Shown here piece after piece: positions 3,088 to 46,335 of a DNA stretch of 64,000 bases. Both the position numbers and the translations under genes were made by a program. The notes below the pieces were generated by a model, which had not been told where the DNA came from, did not search any database, and saw only the letters and a program-made list of their open reading frames with translations. The stretch is taken from the NCBI RefSeq assembly GCF_900231165.1, contig NZ_LT960614.1, forward strand, positions 1,362,550-1,426,549, written 5' to 3'. The number at the start of each line of letters is the position of its first letter. Positions within the stretch are counted from its first letter, which is position 1. Origin of the DNA: Hartmannibacter diazotrophicus (lineage in GTDB: Bacteria > Pseudomonadota > Alphaproteobacteria > Rhizobiales > Pleomorphomonadaceae).

Positions 3088-4308
3088 TCACTTGCGCAGA
3101 AGTCGGCGGACCTTCCTGTTGAGGCCCGGATACTTGTCGAAGTAGATGCGCGCGTCCCGGACGAGCCGTCTCTTGATGGCCGGCAGATGCCCGCGCAGCG
3201 TCAGCGGGGTGTGGTACTCGAATAGATCGAGAGGCGTGCCGCCGAAACGTGCCTTGTACGCATGGGCGCCGACGCCGATGTCGAAGACCTCGAGGCCCTC
3301 TTCCTTGCACAGGTCCTGGGTCGAGACCATGTTGCACAAGCCCGGCGAATAACGCCGATACTGGTTGCCGCCCATCGTCGTGATGATGCCGTTGAACCGG
3401 CCCCGGTAGGTGAAGCCGAGGAACGTGGCGATGGTGGCGCCATCGAAATCGATCGTCGTCATGCTGGTGCGGCCGCTGGCGGCGCCGGCAACGGCGAGAT
3501 CGCGAAAGAAGGCACCGATATTGGGATTGTCGAGGTTGCTGGTCTGCCCCAATTCCCGGCAACGGTGATGGCGCTGCGTGATCATGATGTTCACGGCACG
3601 GGCGACTTCGTCCGGATCGGTCACGCGCCGGAAGACATAGTCGCCTTCCTTCTTCATCTTCCGGATCTTGCCCGCCGCGTCGCGGTGCGCGCTCGTCCGC
3701 GTCAGGTCGATGTCCCTGATGGGGACGACGGAGGTGCTGACCCCCATCATGATCGAGTCCGGAAGGAGGGCGAGCGGATTGTCCAGCGGCCCCACGGTCC
3801 GGGGCATCTTCTTCATGGAAAGGCCATCGGCGGCCGGCAGCGCGGCCACCACCTTTTTCCACATGATGGCGGCCTGGCGGGCGTCGAAACGGGCGGCCGG
3901 TCCCAGGATTGGGGCGCAATAGTCGCAAAGGTCGAGATCGGCAAGTTCGAGCATGCGCATGGCGCCGCGCCGGCGCCAGACAAAGGGGATCAGGACCTGC
4001 GGCTGCCCCGCCCTGTCCCGGACGACCACCACATAGGGACGCGCTCCGTGCTCTTGCGGGATTCGCCCGAGAAAGTGCTCCATGAAGAAGCGGCTCTGGA
4101 AGACGGTCAGATGGCCGGTCGCCTCCAGCGCATCCCATTCGGCCCACAACGCGGGAGACGTGATGTCGTCGAAAACATCGACGGTCAGCGAGGCGGCGTC
4201 GATTTCGTGCTGGGCAATAGCGGGAGTGGCATCGTATGCGACATCCCAGCCAAGGGCACTGGAAGCAAATTCCCACCCGGCATCTGAAGCGTGGGCCACG
4301 TCGATCAT
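3088..4308 (-). CDS. CelD/BcsL-like GNAT acetyltransferase
   Basis: 406 residues. The C-terminal half (about 190-360) has the Acetyltransf_6/CelD layout: an R-rich segment (KIRKMKKEGDY), YRGRFNGIITTMGG and the (Y)SPGLCNMVSTQDL helix, followed by FDIGVGAHAYKARFG, the usual end of the GNAT-like fold in these proteins. Such proteins occur in cellulose and exopolysaccharide clusters; the acceptor is not known. No signal peptide, so cytoplasmic. An AGGA precedes the ATG at 4308 by about 9 nt. Followed after 56 bp by the acyltransferase gene, likely co-transcribed. Confidence 0.75.
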   Translation of the reverse strand: MIDVAHASDAGWEFASSALGWDVAYDATPAIAQHEIDAASLTVDVFDDITSPALWAEWDALEATGHLTVFQSRFFMEHFLGRIPQEHGARPYVVVVRDRAGQPQVLIPFVWRRRGAMRMLELADLDLCDYCAPILGPAARFDARQAAIMWKKVVAALPAADGLSMKKMPRTVGPLDNPLALLPDSIMMGVSTSVVPIRDIDLTRTSAHRDAAGKIRKMKKEGDYVFRRVTDPDEVARAVNIMITQRHHRCRELGQTSNLDNPNIGAFFRDLAVAGAASGRTSMTTIDFDGATIATFLGFTYRGRFNGIITTMGGNQYRRYSPGLCNMVSTQDLCKEEGLEVFDIGVGAHAYKARFGGTPLDLFEYHTPLTLRGHLPAIKRRLVRDARIYFDKYPGLNRKVRRLLRK

Positions 4309-4374
4309 TCCCGAATCCTTCGGTCGATTACTGGATACAAAAACCGGCCCGGCGGCCTCGGCGCGCGATGCGTG

Positions 4375-5589
4375 TCAGTTGCCGGGTGATCGATCGGATA
4401 ACAGTGCCTCAGGCTCGAACAGAGCCTTCATGACCAGCGGATCCGGCAGCCCGGTCGAAGGATCGAGCAGGCCGAAACCGTCGGCAAAATCCCAGTGCGT
4501 CCAGCCGACGCAGCCTTTGTCTTCCGCCGCCGTGACCACGGACGCCAGCCACCTGGCACGATCATCCGGTTGGGCGGCAAAGCGCAGGACGCCAAATTCG
4601 TTCAGGATGACCACCCGGTTATTCTTCGCGGACCAGTCGGCAACCGCCTCGAACAGCCGATCGGCGGAGTGCGGTGTCCAGTCCCGCGACAGGGAACTGT
4701 CGAGAAACCGCGAACTGGCCGCATGGCCCTCCGCACGCAGATCAATGAGCAACTGGCGAATGGCGGGATCGGTCTTGCTGGCCGGGAAGGGAACGTTTTT
4801 CAGGTGCGTCAGCGGGTCGGCGTCCGTCGACCACGTCAGCCCCTGATGGGTGAACGCCATCGGGTCGTAGAAATGCACGGCATAGACGACGTTCGGATCG
4901 TCCACGGGCTTCATGCCGAGAAGAACTTCGGGCCGCTGCGGCCCGTAGGGTTCGGCAATCAGCGTCGTCTCGGGCATCAGCGCGCGCATATGGGCCAGGA
5001 AGCGGGGCAGATGCACCCGCCAGGTGTCCTCGTCGGTCACCGGTTCGTTCAGGACTTCGGCAAAGATGCGGTCCGGGGGAAACTGCGTGATGACGGACGC
5101 GAGATTGTCCCAGGCATTCTCGACGGCCTTGGCCGCCGCCTCCGGATCGGACTTGTAGAGGTCGGCGAACGGACCGCCCGGATGCAGGTCGACGCTGACC
5201 GCATAGCCTTCGTCGAGAAGCAGGGAGAGGGCGCCGCGCAGGGCGCTCAGCTGGGCGGCAACGGCGGTAGGGTCCATGAAACGGGCCATGACGAGTTCGC
5301 CGCGCACAGGCAGGCGCACATGGGTCATGCCGAGCAGGCGAAGGTGGCGCAGGACCGTGCGGCTCGGCGTCTTGCCGTCGGGGCGGTCCATCCAGCTTGG
5401 AATGTTGAAGCCACGGGCCAGCGCCTGCACGCGATCGGCGGCCACGCCCCCGCTGCGTTCGGCAAGGCAGGCCGGAAAGCCCTCCGCCGCCGACGCGGGC
5501 ATGCCGCCGGCCAGGCCGCCCAGACCGAGGAGCGAAAGGAAAGCCGCGGCTGCAAGACGCTGTACGGGCCGCAAAGGCAGAATCCTCAT
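4375..5589 (-). CDS. Secreted glycoside hydrolase family 5 (cellulase-like)
   Basis: 404 residues from the ATG at 5587-5589, chosen because it overlaps the stop of the upstream gene (ATGA) and opens a clean signal peptide (RLAAAAFLSLLGLGGLAGG, cleavage near ASA-AEG). Further 5' in frame is only shadow sequence. GH5 landmarks in order: ARGFNIPSW near 60, HVRLPVRGE, VSVDLHPGG, VLNEPV (the Asn-Glu acid/base pair), YAVHFYDP, and VILNEFGVL with the nucleophile Glu, then WTHWDFADGFGL. Found in a polysaccharide cluster, it more likely trims or releases the organism's own exopolysaccharide than digests plant cellulose; that is inference. Confidence 0.88.
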   Translation of the reverse strand: MRILPLRPVQRLAAAAFLSLLGLGGLAGGMPASAAEGFPACLAERSGGVAADRVQALARGFNIPSWMDRPDGKTPSRTVLRHLRLLGMTHVRLPVRGELVMARFMDPTAVAAQLSALRGALSLLLDEGYAVSVDLHPGGPFADLYKSDPEAAAKAVENAWDNLASVITQFPPDRIFAEVLNEPVTDEDTWRVHLPRFLAHMRALMPETTLIAEPYGPQRPEVLLGMKPVDDPNVVYAVHFYDPMAFTHQGLTWSTDADPLTHLKNVPFPASKTDPAIRQLLIDLRAEGHAASSRFLDSSLSRDWTPHSADRLFEAVADWSAKNNRVVILNEFGVLRFAAQPDDRARWLASVVTAAEDKGCVGWTHWDFADGFGLLDPSTGLPDPLVMKALFEPEALLSDRSPGN

Positions 5590-44018: not shown

Positions 44019-44046
44019 AAAAAAAAGACGGTCAGTTTCCCGACCG
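44019..44046 (-). terminator. Intrinsic terminator of peptide gene 1
   Basis: Read on the minus strand: CGGTC (44046-44042), 8-nt loop, GACCG (44033-44029), then TC and a run of eight T. Short stem but long T-tract, 28 bp after the stop. Confidence 0.75.
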
Positions 44047-44073
44047 CCGCATTCTCGCAACTTCTGTTGTCGC

Positions 44074-44292
44074 TCAGCGCTGGCTCTTGCGCCGTGCCAT
44101 GAGGAACAGGCCACCGGCGATCGGCAGGCCAAGGGCCGCGACCGGAAGCGGAACACCGTTCGGGTCGCCCAGGGCCTCGCAGACGAAGAGCTGCAGGTTG
44201 CCCTGGCACAGGAACTGGCCTTCAGCAAAAGCAGGCATGGCGCTCAAAGTAACCAGCGCAGCCGCAGCCGCGCCCAAATAAAATTTTTTCAT
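44074..44292 (-). CDS. Small exported peptide 1 with PEP-CTERM-like tail
   Basis: 72 residues, ATG at 44290-44292 with AGGAGG 5 nt upstream. A 23-residue Sec signal ends at AFA. The mature part is 49 residues: EGQFLC, then C29-x8-C38, a DPNG turn, and the tail VPLPVAALGLPIAGGLFLMA followed by RRKSQR. The cysteine spacing, NG, PLP, AALGLP and GLF positions are shared with the two other genes of this cluster. The tail has the three parts of a CTERM sorting signal (short motif, hydrophobic helix, basic end) and resembles VPLPA-CTERM, but that assignment is not proven. Function unknown. Its own terminator follows at once. Confidence 0.85.
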   Translation of the reverse strand: MKKFYLGAAAAALVTLSAMPAFAEGQFLCQGNLQLFVCEALGDPNGVPLPVAALGLPIAGGLFLMARRKSQR

Positions 44293-44293
44293 A

Positions 44294-44313
44294 TGAACCT
44301 CCTGGAACTCTGG
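44294..44313 (-). promoter_or_regulatory. Conserved leader of peptide gene 1
   Basis: This 20-nt stretch, read on the minus strand as CCAGAGTTCCAGGAGGTTCA, is identical to 45436-45455 in front of peptide gene 2. It includes the ribosome binding site and may be a shared mRNA leader element. Confidence 0.7.
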
Positions 44314-44340
44314 TTGATAGGTCCCCCCTATCCGCCCGAT

Positions 44341-44358
44341 AAGATTAATATCAATCTT
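44341..44358. promoter_or_regulatory. AT-rich inverted repeat upstream of peptide gene 1
   Basis: AAGATT (44341-44346), AATATC, AATCTT (44353-44358). It includes ATTAATATCAAT (44344-44355), nearly the same as ATTAATAACAAT in front of gene 2, at a similar distance (about 50 bp) from the start codon. Candidate promoter or operator. Confidence 0.5.
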
Positions 44359-45180
44359 CTTGCTGCCGTGCAACGTGCTTTTCGAAACCTTAAGTCAAAC
44401 GCGAAAATTGAGAAGGATCGACAAGGCCCAAAGAAAATTAAACGGATAAATAGACGCCGGGTAGTCGTGCCGTATTAAGAATAAAAAGAGCGAATTGGTT
44501 CGTGGACGAGTCATAAATTGAGTAACATGGTTTCAAAAGTATAAACAAAAAATACAAAGCATGTTCAGTCGAGTCTTAAAGTTGCTTGTGATGTGTTTTC
44601 GGACATTCACGATCTCGATTGGATCGAGTGCACCTTAATTTTAACCATGCCAGTTGAACGTGGGGAGTCCGCAAAAGCCGGTAGTAATCTCAACCGGGGT
44701 AGCATGGCCGCGATTCATGCCTTCTGGCCTGATTTGCCAATGGATTGTGACCTGAATTCAACAACTCTCGTAAACAATTTCCGGCCAGGCATAGTCTAGT
44801 GATGCCTTGGGAAACAATTCTAAGTTTATCAATTCAGAAATACATCTGATGGGTGTGTATCTCGACCCCATATGCACTCGCAGTGGAATTCATGTGTCAT
44901 CGCGCTGGGAGAAGGGCGGTGCGGTCGGATGCAAGCCGATGGATGGCTGCCTCCGCAGGGAGCGCGCGCTCACGCTTGCGTGGAAACTCCTGAGCCGGAC
45001 CTGCGCGACCATGCGTCCGCAATGACGAGCCGGTGGGCGAAGGCCGACGGGACTTCCTGGCTGAATGGGCCTACTGGCCGATGCGGGCAGGCGACGCCCC
45101 TTGCAAGCTCAGCGTTCGCTGCGGCATCTGCTGCCGTCGTGACTGCAGCCGAGATGTGGGCTGCTTCAAGGGCGTGAAGC
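44359..45180. other. Long low-coding spacer between peptide genes 1 and 2
   Basis: About 820 bp. The part up to 44880 is AT-rich and has no supported gene; the part from about 44890 to 45170 is GC-rich with several short open frames, none with a ribosome binding site or family match. It may be a decayed gene or an unrecognised RNA. Confidence 0.4.
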
Positions 45181-45208
45181 GAAGGCGGCCGGCGCGCCGA
45201 CCGCCTTC
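45181..45208. other. Strong hairpin after peptide gene 2
   Basis: GAAGGCGG (45181-45188) pairs with CCGCCTTC (45201-45208) and the stem extends inward to about 13 bp with one G-U pair. It lies just past the stop of peptide gene 2 but lacks a T-run on the minus strand; it may be a terminator or an mRNA-protecting hairpin. Confidence 0.6.
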
Positions 45209-45215
45209 GGAAAAC

Positions 45216-45434
45216 TCAGTGTGAGTGCCTACGCTTGGCATACAGGAAAAGGCCGGCCGCGAGCGGCAGACCGAGGGCTGCAATGGGCAGCGGAACACCA
45301 TTCGGCGGCGACACCTGCTTACAGACCAGAAGTGTCGGGCTGATTTCACAAAGATATGCGCCCTCGGCAAACGCCGGAAGGGCACTGAATGCAACCACCG
45401 CCGCGACCGCCGCGCTCAAAATGTATTTCTTCAA
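45216..45434 (-). CDS. Small exported peptide 2 with PEP-CTERM-like tail
   Basis: 72 residues. Start is TTG at 45432-45434, fixed by AGGAGG 5 nt upstream in the same leader as gene 1; there is no nearby ATG. 23-residue signal ending AFA. Mature: EGAYLC, C29-x8-C38, PPNG, then VPLPIAALGLPLAAGLFLYA and KRRHSH. It aligns with peptide 1 without gaps over its full length. Probably exported and anchored in the inner membrane by the tail, or processed there. Function unknown. Confidence 0.85.
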   Translation of the reverse strand: MKKYILSAAVAAVVAFSALPAFAEGAYLCEISPTLLVCKQVSPPNGVPLPIAALGLPLAAGLFLYAKRRHSH

Positions 45435-45435
45435 T

Positions 45436-45455
45436 TGAACCTCCTGGAACTCTGG
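45436..45455 (-). promoter_or_regulatory. Conserved leader of peptide gene 2
   Basis: Identical over 20 nt to 44294-44313 in front of peptide gene 1; contains the AGGAGG ribosome binding site. Confidence 0.7.
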
Positions 45456-45480
45456 CCACTAGTGTTCCTGTTCAGCAAGT

Positions 45481-45496
45481 AAATTAATAACAATTT
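45481..45496. promoter_or_regulatory. AT-rich inverted repeat upstream of peptide gene 2
   Basis: AAATT (45481-45485), AATAAC, AATTT (45492-45496), containing ATTAATAACAAT (45483-45494). It matches the element before peptide gene 1 in core sequence, arm architecture and distance from the start. Confidence 0.5.
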
Positions 45497-46084
45497 CGCC
45501 GGATGTGCGCAAGGAAAAATTATGAATTCAGGACAGCGGCAAGAAGAGGTCGGGTGAATAAAGCGCCAATATCTTAATCGTCGAACAAGTCTGAAATATA
45601 ACGAAAATTCGAAGTCCGTGAAATCACGGCTGCGCAAGTAGGCAACATCTCGAGGGGCTTGGAGAGCGGTCCAGACCAAAAGTGGAAAAATTCCCGTTCT
45701 ATTCTGGGAATCGGGCGCCAAACGATTGATCGATATTGAGTTGGATAATCCGGCGCGCGGGCATCTTCGGCGCAAATGGCCGCTCCTCGATGCGCCGGGG
45801 TCGAGAATGCTTCGCTGAGACTGGGCGAAGTCTCGCGGGCTCGAAAAACGGGGGGGGGCGATTCAGCCGGGAGGGTGGCCCGCAGTTCAGCGGCACCTGC
45901 CGGCACAAGGCTGCTGTGACAGCGGCTTGCCTGTGACGGTCATGGGAGACCGTGCCGATCGTCGAAGGGGCGGGGGGGGGGGGCAGTACCTCACGCCATC
46001 GGAAGGCTTATGCGGGGCTTCATGCGCTCGCGTTGCCCGGACTGGATAAAGGCGGCGAGAGCAACCGATTCGTCATGCAGAAAA
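45497..46084. other. Spacer between peptide genes 2 and 3, with G-tracts
   Basis: About 590 bp without a supported gene. It holds a run of 9 G (45850-45858) and a run of 12 G (45972-45983). Such runs are unusual here and are prone to slip; no reading frame with a known domain crosses them. Confidence 0.5.
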
Positions 46085-46112
46085 GAAGGCGGCCGGGAGG
46101 TCGGCCGCCTTC
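46085..46112 (-). terminator. Intrinsic terminator of peptide gene 3
   Basis: GAAGGCGGCCG (46085-46095) pairs with CGGCCGCCTTC (46102-46112); on the minus strand it is followed by TTTTCTG. Eleven perfect base pairs, 7 bp after the stop. Confidence 0.85.
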
Positions 46113-46119
46113 CAGAATC

Positions 46120-46335
46120 TTAGCGAGCCTGCTTGCGCTTGGCGTAGGCGAAGAGACCGGCCGCGATCGGCAGGCCGAGAGCGGCGATCGGGAGCGGAGC
46201 GCCGTTGCCCGGGAGCGCCTGGCAGATCTCGAGGTTGGGAGCGAGATCACAAATCTGCACACCATTCGCGAAGGCCGGAGCCACGCTAAACATTGCCACG
46301 GTGGCAATGGCGGCACCATACATGATTTTCTTCAA
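46120..46335 (-). CDS. Small exported peptide 3 with PEP-CTERM-like tail
   Basis: 71 residues. TTG start at 46333-46335 with AGGAG 6 nt upstream; an ATG four codons in (MYGAAIA) is less likely because it shortens the signal and is far from the ribosome binding site. 23-residue signal ending AFA. Mature: NGVQIC, C29-x8-C38, one residue shorter before NG, then APLPIAALGLPIAAGLFAYA and KRKQAR. The most divergent of the three in sequence and leader. Function unknown. Confidence 0.83.
   Translation of the reverse strand: MKKIMYGAAIATVAMFSVAPAFANGVQICDLAPNLEICQALPGNGAPLPIAALGLPIAAGLFAYAKRKQAR

Follow-up and report, generated by a model that had tools for sequence, protein, structure and literature searches.

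An exosortase system as the probable reader of a shared tail on tandem mini-peptides of Hartmannibacter diazotrophicus

Three short genes lying in a row on one strand of the Hartmannibacter diazotrophicus genome encode exported peptides with the same C-terminal tail, and the question that they raise is what reads this tail. The genes are hosted in a window of 64,000 nucleotides (NCBI RefSeq assembly GCF_900231165.1, contig NZ_LT960614.1, positions 1,362,550 to 1,426,549), which is the whole stretch of DNA that was analyzed and to which all unlabelled coordinates refer. An initial annotation had described a three-member family of small exported proteins with a cysteine pair and a tail suggestive of sorting by dedicated machinery. 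Our results suggest that these genes and a fourth copy elsewhere in the genome probably encode mini-substrates of an uncharacterised exosortase system, in which a protein that we call exo2 would act as the enzyme together with a small partner. The three genes and their tails are the following.

44074-44292, minus strand: gene 1, 72-residue exported peptide precursor, ATG start, Cys29 and Cys38
44077-44163, minus strand: tail of gene 1, PNGVPLPVAALGLPIAGGLFLMARRKSQR, candidate sorting signal
45216-45434, minus strand: gene 2, 72-residue exported peptide precursor, TTG start, Cys29 and Cys38
45219-45305, minus strand: tail of gene 2, PNGVPLPIAALGLPLAAGLFLYAKRRHSH, candidate sorting signal
46120-46335, minus strand: gene 3, 71-residue exported peptide precursor, TTG start, Cys29 and Cys38
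46123-46209, minus strand: tail of gene 3, GNGAPLPIAALGLPIAAGLFAYAKRKQAR, candidate sorting signal

Positions, strand and lengths agree with the initial annotation, and so does the exact placing of the two cysteines, which are the only ones in each product. The 23-residue signal ending in AFA is likewise present in all three proteins, as read by eye from the sequence. The signal is separated from the PLP string by 24, 24 and 23 residues in genes 1, 2 and 3, respectively, and the common tail follows the pattern G-[VA]-PLP-[VI]-AALGLP-[IL]-A-[AG]-GLF. The family is, however, larger than its three tandem members, and the genome holds four copies. The fourth paralogue (87 residues, Cys38 and Cys48) lies on the same contig, 1.4 Mb from genes 1-3, and has 39 residues ahead of PLP compared to about 23-24 in the others. 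All four paralogues contain exactly two cysteines, and tail-only profiles run on the whole genome at E <= 0.01 matched these four and nothing else. Over the six paralogue pairs, the synonymous divergence (dS) of the whole gene is 1.1-2.2 and the ratio of nonsynonymous to synonymous divergence (dN/dS) in the tail is 0.08-0.38. The proportion of nonsynonymous differences (pN) is higher in the middle part (0.42-0.66) than in the tail (0.07-0.20). Genes 1-3 are real genes under selection. The fourth copy (L015:8125-8388, plus strand) is located between two large frames, which we take from their sequence to resemble glycogen phosphorylase and RecG.

The sorting signal had been attributed to the PEP-CTERM or VPLPA-CTERM type, with VPEID-CTERM as a further model to compare. 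None of the window proteins exceeded the cut-off of any Pfam or NCBIfam model, and at E up to 10 the three of them had no match to a PEP-CTERM, VPLPA-CTERM or VPEID-CTERM model, in a library that was not checked for the presence of TIGR03370, which we take to be the VPLPA-CTERM tail model. In particular, TIGR02595 (PEP-CTERM) matched neither these proteins at E up to 10 nor the fourth copy at E up to 1, and exo2 has no match to the XrtD model at E up to 1. With TIGR04161 (VPEID-CTERM, cut-off of 33 bits), no protein of the whole genome passed the cut-off and the best score, 12.1 bits, fell away from the peptide genes. The idea of sorting was right in kind, but the tail is not PEP-, VPLPA- or VPEID-CTERM. 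An alignment of 13 tails shows a motif, a hydrophobic stretch and a basic end, and the precursors begin, as judged by eye, with a signal peptide. No dedicated model of NCBIfam 20.0 or Pfam was reached by the enzyme subfamily, the tail or the partner in the members tested, and a search of the open-licence literature found no description of such an exosortase-tail system. Other candidate families were rejected for the window proteins, including the TrbC/VirB2 pilin (15.8 versus 27.9 bits) and the Gram_pos_anchor, LAVTG, ExtJ, Phr and DLW-39 models, every one of which scored below its cut-off.

Relatives of the peptides point to the enzyme. In a genome-contig collection of 84,980 species, the gene 2 protein matched at least four loci, two from Neorhizobium and two from a Rickettsiales metagenome-assembled genome; against plasmids it had no match. 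The Rickettsiales loci (L010 and L013) were discarded as relatives because only residues 1-41 match and the rest of the L010 frame is unrelated. The two convincing relatives among the matches listed are those of Neorhizobium huautlense and N. alkalisoli, whose small proteins carry the same tail, RGAPFPIAALGLPLAAGLFAYVILKRSKN or KGAPVPIAALGLPLAAGLFAYVVRKNSKN, behind a mature part that is rich in glycine and has no cysteine. In these species, the tail gene lies directly upstream of a gene whose longest frame, which it overlaps, encodes a membrane protein with 296 or 334 residues. Both membrane proteins exceed the cut-off of the exosortase/archaeosortase signature TIGR04178 (24.0 and 25.8, cut-off 23). 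The Neorhizobium enzyme finds a single homologue in the window's genome (G000), which is exo2, with 45% identity (E 9.7e-72) and a TIGR04178 score of 24.4 over the same cut-off. Neither exo2 nor the Neorhizobium enzymes reach the cut-off of any named exosortase subfamily. An overlapping gene follows the enzyme and encodes a protein of 159 residues in the window's genome and of 153 residues in N. huautlense.

G000:C1:4265287-4266117: exo2, 276-residue exosortase-family protein containing Cys186, Arg231 and His246
L016:2283-2762, plus strand, and L011:5919-6380, plus strand: overlapping partner genes after the exosortase, 153-159 residues, no family match at cut-off

The enzyme belongs to a wider family in which Cys, N-x-x-R and His are conserved. 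As given in the accessible part of its description (PMC1569441), EpsH has the motifs Cys-x-Gly, Asn-x-x-Arg and His-x-x-x-Gly. In a 13-row alignment of the present family, D154, C186, S188, N228, R231 and H246 (exo2 numbering) are invariant. Both N-x-x-R and His-x3-[Gly/Ala] occur in 27 out of 27 members, with glycine in exo2 and alanine in its place in the Neorhizobium members, and the cysteine motif was found by script in 26 of the 27 and by eye in the last one (G502). The partner gene (153-166 residues, with two shared cysteine columns) lies downstream of the enzyme at 8 out of 12 order-level loci. In the wider family, many of the enzyme genes overlap such a partner, of about 155 residues. 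In Rhizobium sp. WL3 the enzyme-partner pair sits among genes for a glycosyltransferase, an acetyltransferase and a sugar transferase, and both of its members are annotated as hypothetical proteins. Searches of plasmids with exo2 returned three distant records, and the same three were found with another family member.

Tails occur beside these enzymes in several lineages. Leaving apart the window's own three genes, tails of the form P.P[IVL]xxxGLP were found at 8 of the 26 enzyme loci (L024, L028, L029, L053 with two, L055 with two, L056 and L057 by script, and the truncated L026) and at none of 30 other loci. This count excludes 28 of 84 loci, which were the peptides' own tail loci, copies of enzyme loci or tail hits in enzyme-positive genomes. 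The 30 comparison loci were those fetched in this analysis and not a random draw, some of them overlap, and several of the 26 enzyme loci had been viewed before the motif was fixed. In a tree of 27 enzymes, in which many of the deeper branches are long and unsure, the four enzymes with AALGLP tails (from the window's genome and three Neorhizobium-type genomes) form one clade with support of 100/100, separate from the enzymes in genomes with tails of the PGP-x-AGxGLP type. Here enzyme and tail were paired by genome and not by adjacency for G001, G202, G276 and the second enzymes of G242 and G749. One of the loci, on a plasmid of Microvirga ossetica, has two divergent short proteins with VPGPIAGAGLP tails adjoining one exosortase (L053:3832-4101, minus strand, and 4259-4552, plus strand), in a stretch where PLSDB has no annotated gene. 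The Microvirga tail proteins near the enzyme are rich in glycine and lack the cysteine pair.

We also measured the co-occurrence of tail and enzyme across genomes. Among 397 genomes of the order, 10 had a match to the exosortase profile A3, three of them above 470 bits and none of the others above 81. Seven had a match to the tail profile A2, and those above 50 bits were the same three. These are the window's genome and two Neorhizobium-type genomes, G303 and G364; G303 is the independent one of the three because G000 and G364 contributed to the profiles. In the window's family the tail was found in 1 out of 20 genomes, which is G000 itself. Seven of nine further exosortase-positive genomes of the order have tails (four in G001, one in G145, six each in G202 and G242, five in G276 and one each in G303 and G364), and the remaining two, G137 and G322, have none. 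The tail was also found in none of five exosortase-negative genomes of the window's family. Among 385 genomes of the class, 11 are positive for the exosortase profile A4 at E <= 1e-5, and these include all five that have tails at E <= 1e-3 by the profile A5 (G000, G490, G599, G749 and G719). At E <= 0.01, A5 matched 13 class genomes, six exosortase-positive and seven negative, and the weak matches printed are mostly partial.

Since A5 was built from the tails of seven genomes (G000, G145, G242, G303, G364, G490 and G599), we repeated the comparison with these sources removed. In the resulting 392 genomes, 10 of which had been selected by enzyme status, the exosortase is present in all five genomes whose tail reaches E <= 1e-3, compared to 13 out of 392 overall (P = 1.7e-8, kinship ignored). 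That line was set after the results had been seen, and the counts at E <= 0.01 are therefore given alongside (6 out of 13 tail genomes positive, P = 5e-7, kinship ignored). With the class set alone, the corresponding figures are 2 out of 2 compared to 8 out of 382 (P = 3.8e-4) and, at E <= 0.01, 3 out of 10 (P = 7e-4), again with kinship ignored. Overall, 12 of the 20 exosortase-positive genomes carry the tail at E <= 1e-3. Absences in the scans of 397 and 385 genomes are soft, because about 20 tail candidates were scored per genome, compared to up to 150 in the sets of nine and five genomes.

The same tail is used by many dissimilar proteins. Four genomes (G001, G202, G242 and G276) have it on 21 proteins of 61-324 residues, with four to six per genome. 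Outside the tail, similarity at E <= 1e-3 was seen in none of the 46 same-genome pairs and in 1 of all 210. The window's genome differs in that its four tail proteins are all paralogues of each other. Nine of the 21 proteins were tested and gave no Pfam family and no PEP_CTERM match at E up to 0.1. One GLP-tailed protein of G001 (L089:1489-2079, minus strand) has a sub-threshold match (21.8 versus 29 bits) to the exosortase-dependent surface domain Npun_F0296, a domain that may perhaps carry another tail elsewhere. The proposal that the tail is read by dedicated machinery, here of the exosortase type, is supported by its adjacency to the enzyme gene in several lineages, by the co-occurrence of the two across genomes and by this many-to-one use.

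Several observations weigh against this assignment. On the side of the enzyme, TIGR04178 is barely passed by exo2 and its cut-off is reached by only five of eight family members tested; PF09721 (Exosortase_EpsH, cut-off 25.7) gives 15.2 for exo2, 8.5 and 11.6 for the Neorhizobium enzymes and no match at E up to 1 for L028. The conserved cysteine is mostly in Cys-Ser-Ser (also Cys-Ala-Ser and the like) and not in the Cys-x-Gly that the accessible part of PMC1569441 gives for EpsH. Similarity to a clear exosortase, the XrtE protein of the same genome, is faint, with a BLASTP E of 0.76 for exo2, a probability of 3% for the family profile against one XrtE and of 31% (E 5e-4, aligned on Cys and N-x-x-R) against six. 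The structure prediction for a Neorhizobium exosortase had a predicted local distance difference test score (pLDDT) of 39 and was discarded, and comparison of the exosortase profile and of XrtE with the chains of the PDB yielded nothing at E up to 1. On the side of distribution, the four remaining A2 tail matches (18-22 bits) come from genomes in which the exosortase profile has no match, 8 of the 20 exosortase-positive genomes have no tail at E <= 1e-3, and 11 genomes with tails at E of 1e-3 to 1e-2 have no enzyme match. Finally, exo2 and the peptide genes are unlinked and far apart in the window's genome.

This last point also speaks for the most serious of the alternatives, namely that the peptides are plain small membrane proteins whose tail is an uncut anchor with an indirect link to the exosortase. 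Any protein with a signal, a C-terminal helix and a basic end would be a membrane protein. Yet the motif itself, beyond mere hydrophobicity, is kept across families and genera, tracks the enzyme family and is common to otherwise dissimilar proteins, and we regard an uncut anchor as unlikely.

Somewhat less probable still is that the tail is read by XrtE, an exosortase E fused to a CAAX-type protease and the enzyme of the VPEID-CTERM system. XrtE is a clear exosortase (189.9 versus a cut-off of 150; 16.3 versus 400 on the XrtD model) and the sole PF09721 match in the window's genome, where no substrate for it passed the TIGR04161 cut-off. Just upstream of xrtE, however, is a gene with a different tail:

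L014:7989-8417 = G000:C1:1257988-1258416, plus strand: 142-residue lipoprotein-like protein with tail APEVGAEGAAAAFAVVIGSILVMTGRRRRKA

This protein is probably the XrtE substrate, missed by TIGR04161. The counter-evidence from adjacency is weakened by the fact that our filter showed no tail gene beside five other XrtE genes. XrtE exceeds its cut-off in 6 of the 397 order genomes and has matches in nine, and the AALGLP-tail genomes G303 and G364 are not among these nine. Where Neorhizobium has the GLP tail, XrtE is thus not required.

Going by the tails and their adjacent genes, to which the comparison was confined, processing by an LPXTG-type sortase or by another sorting protease (rhombosortase, myxosortase-like) is improbable. 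The generic LPXTG_anchor model is over its cut-off for two of seven tail proteins of the wider family and at its cut-off for one of nine more, and the gene 1 protein matches an LPXTG-like model below its cut-off (17.5 versus 27); the tails nevertheless lack an LPXTG motif, and the gene that adjoins them is exosortase-like. As to the three genes being chance open reading frames, their shortness, the two TTG starts and the mere two convincing relatives among the matches listed count for very little against the low tail dN/dS, the two cysteines in all four paralogues, the Shine-Dalgarno sites and the relatives in another family, and we consider this explanation negligible.

If the peptides are substrates of the exosortase system, the precursor would cross the inner membrane by Sec and its signal would be removed after AFA, while the C-terminal helix would retain it in the membrane with the basic end inside. 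The enzyme exo2, with its 159-residue partner, would then recognise P-x-P-[IV]-A-x-x-GLP and cut near P-x-P, and the cut peptide may be released or passed on to an acceptor at the surface, probably linked to lipid or exopolysaccharide. The mature peptide would be 23-39 residues long, with a cysteine pair by which a loop of 8-9 residues could be closed. The initial annotation had suggested that the short cysteine loop is the working part. Two cysteines are indeed kept in all four paralogues, but none is present in the two same-tailed Neorhizobium proteins, whose mature parts are rich in glycine. Because the Neorhizobium and Microvirga proteins lack the pair, the loop seems to belong to the cargo of this lineage and not to sorting. 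A role of the peptides at the cell surface is likely by analogy, because related systems act in biofilm formation and surface attachment, as described in the accessible parts of PMC12188702 and PMC10936215.

Compared to the PEP-CTERM/EpsH system, as far as the accessible part of PMC1569441 presents it, the present one is alike in pairing an N-terminal signal with a C-terminal motif, helix and basic cluster, in repeating one tail on several proteins per genome, in having an enzyme with Cys, N-x-x-R and His motifs, and in the placing of one enzyme locus in an exopolysaccharide cluster. It differs in that the tails lack Pro-Glu-Pro and leave TIGR02595 unmatched, both in the window proteins (E up to 10) and in nine others (E up to 0.1), and in that the enzymes have Cys-Ser-Ser instead of Cys-x-Gly and score below the PF09721 cut-off. 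With VPLPA-CTERM/XrtD (TIGR04152) it shares a VPLP string in the tails of genes 1 and 2, whereas the enzyme model does not match exo2. With VPEID-CTERM (TIGR04161, TIGR04162) it shares a genome, in which XrtE is present, but the peptide tails are not VPEID-like and exo2 has no fused protease. XrtF of Flavobacterium johnsoniae is also a variant exosortase with an adjacent partner gene, and mutants of either lose biofilm formation and colonisation (accessible parts of PMC10936215 and PMC12188702); the XrtF model, however, scores 18.5 on the family member L028, compared to a cut-off of 90. The GlyGly-CTERM/rhombosortase system has a tripartite tail as well and was discovered through co-distribution and through adjacency where a genome has one target, but its enzyme superfamily and its motif are others (accessible part of PMC3237569).

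The sequences around the three genes include leaders and hairpins.

44294-44313, minus strand: leader of gene 1 with AGGAGG Shine-Dalgarno, 20 bases identical to the leader of gene 2
45436-45455, minus strand: leader of gene 2 with AGGAGG Shine-Dalgarno, 20 bases identical to the leader of gene 1
44027-44048, minus strand: terminator-like hairpin followed by a T-run, 3' of gene 1, found by scan
45180-45209, minus strand: GC-rich hairpin without a T-run, 3' of gene 2, seen by eye and absent from the scan list
46085-46112, minus strand: GC-rich hairpin followed by a T-rich stretch, 3' of gene 3, seen by eye and absent from the scan list

The 20 bases common to the first two leaders are CCAGAGTTCCAGGAGGTTCA, which contains AGGAGG, and the Shine-Dalgarno of gene 3 reads AGAGGAG by eye. 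Terminators had been proposed after genes 1 and 3. The scan supports a hairpin with a T-run after gene 1, but that of gene 3 was seen by eye only, and terminator-like sites in the region (three found) are in no excess over shuffled sequence (4.2 expected). Separate control of each copy is plausible. By eye, the hairpin after gene 2 and that after gene 3 both have GAAGGCGG stems, as if they had been duplicated with the genes. An Rfam match to toga_FSE at 45181-45208, on the gene 2 hairpin (22.3 versus 40 bits), was taken as chance. Two long G-rich runs lie between genes 2 and 3 (45848-45856 and 45969-45982, by eye and with approximate ends) and are possibly prone to slippage.

The probable assignment of genes 1-3 and the fourth copy to exo2 and its partner would add a candidate enzyme-tail pair to the exosortase systems, with unusually small substrates. 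More tentatively, and going by sequence, we can envisage that an unmodelled exosortase subfamily, with its own partner and a P-x-P-[IV]-A-x-x-GLP tail, matures ribosomally made mini-peptides that are shown on the surface or released. These might be cysteine-loop peptides of 23-39 residues in H. diazotrophicus and short glycine-rich ones in Neorhizobium and Microvirga. If this is true, exosortases would be enzymes of peptide maturation as well as sorters of large surface proteins. To our knowledge, the acceptor to which exosortases attach their products is still open in the field. The present substrates are short enough for mass spectrometry of a single peptide to give both cut site and acceptor, and such mini-substrates would make the question of the acceptor directly testable.

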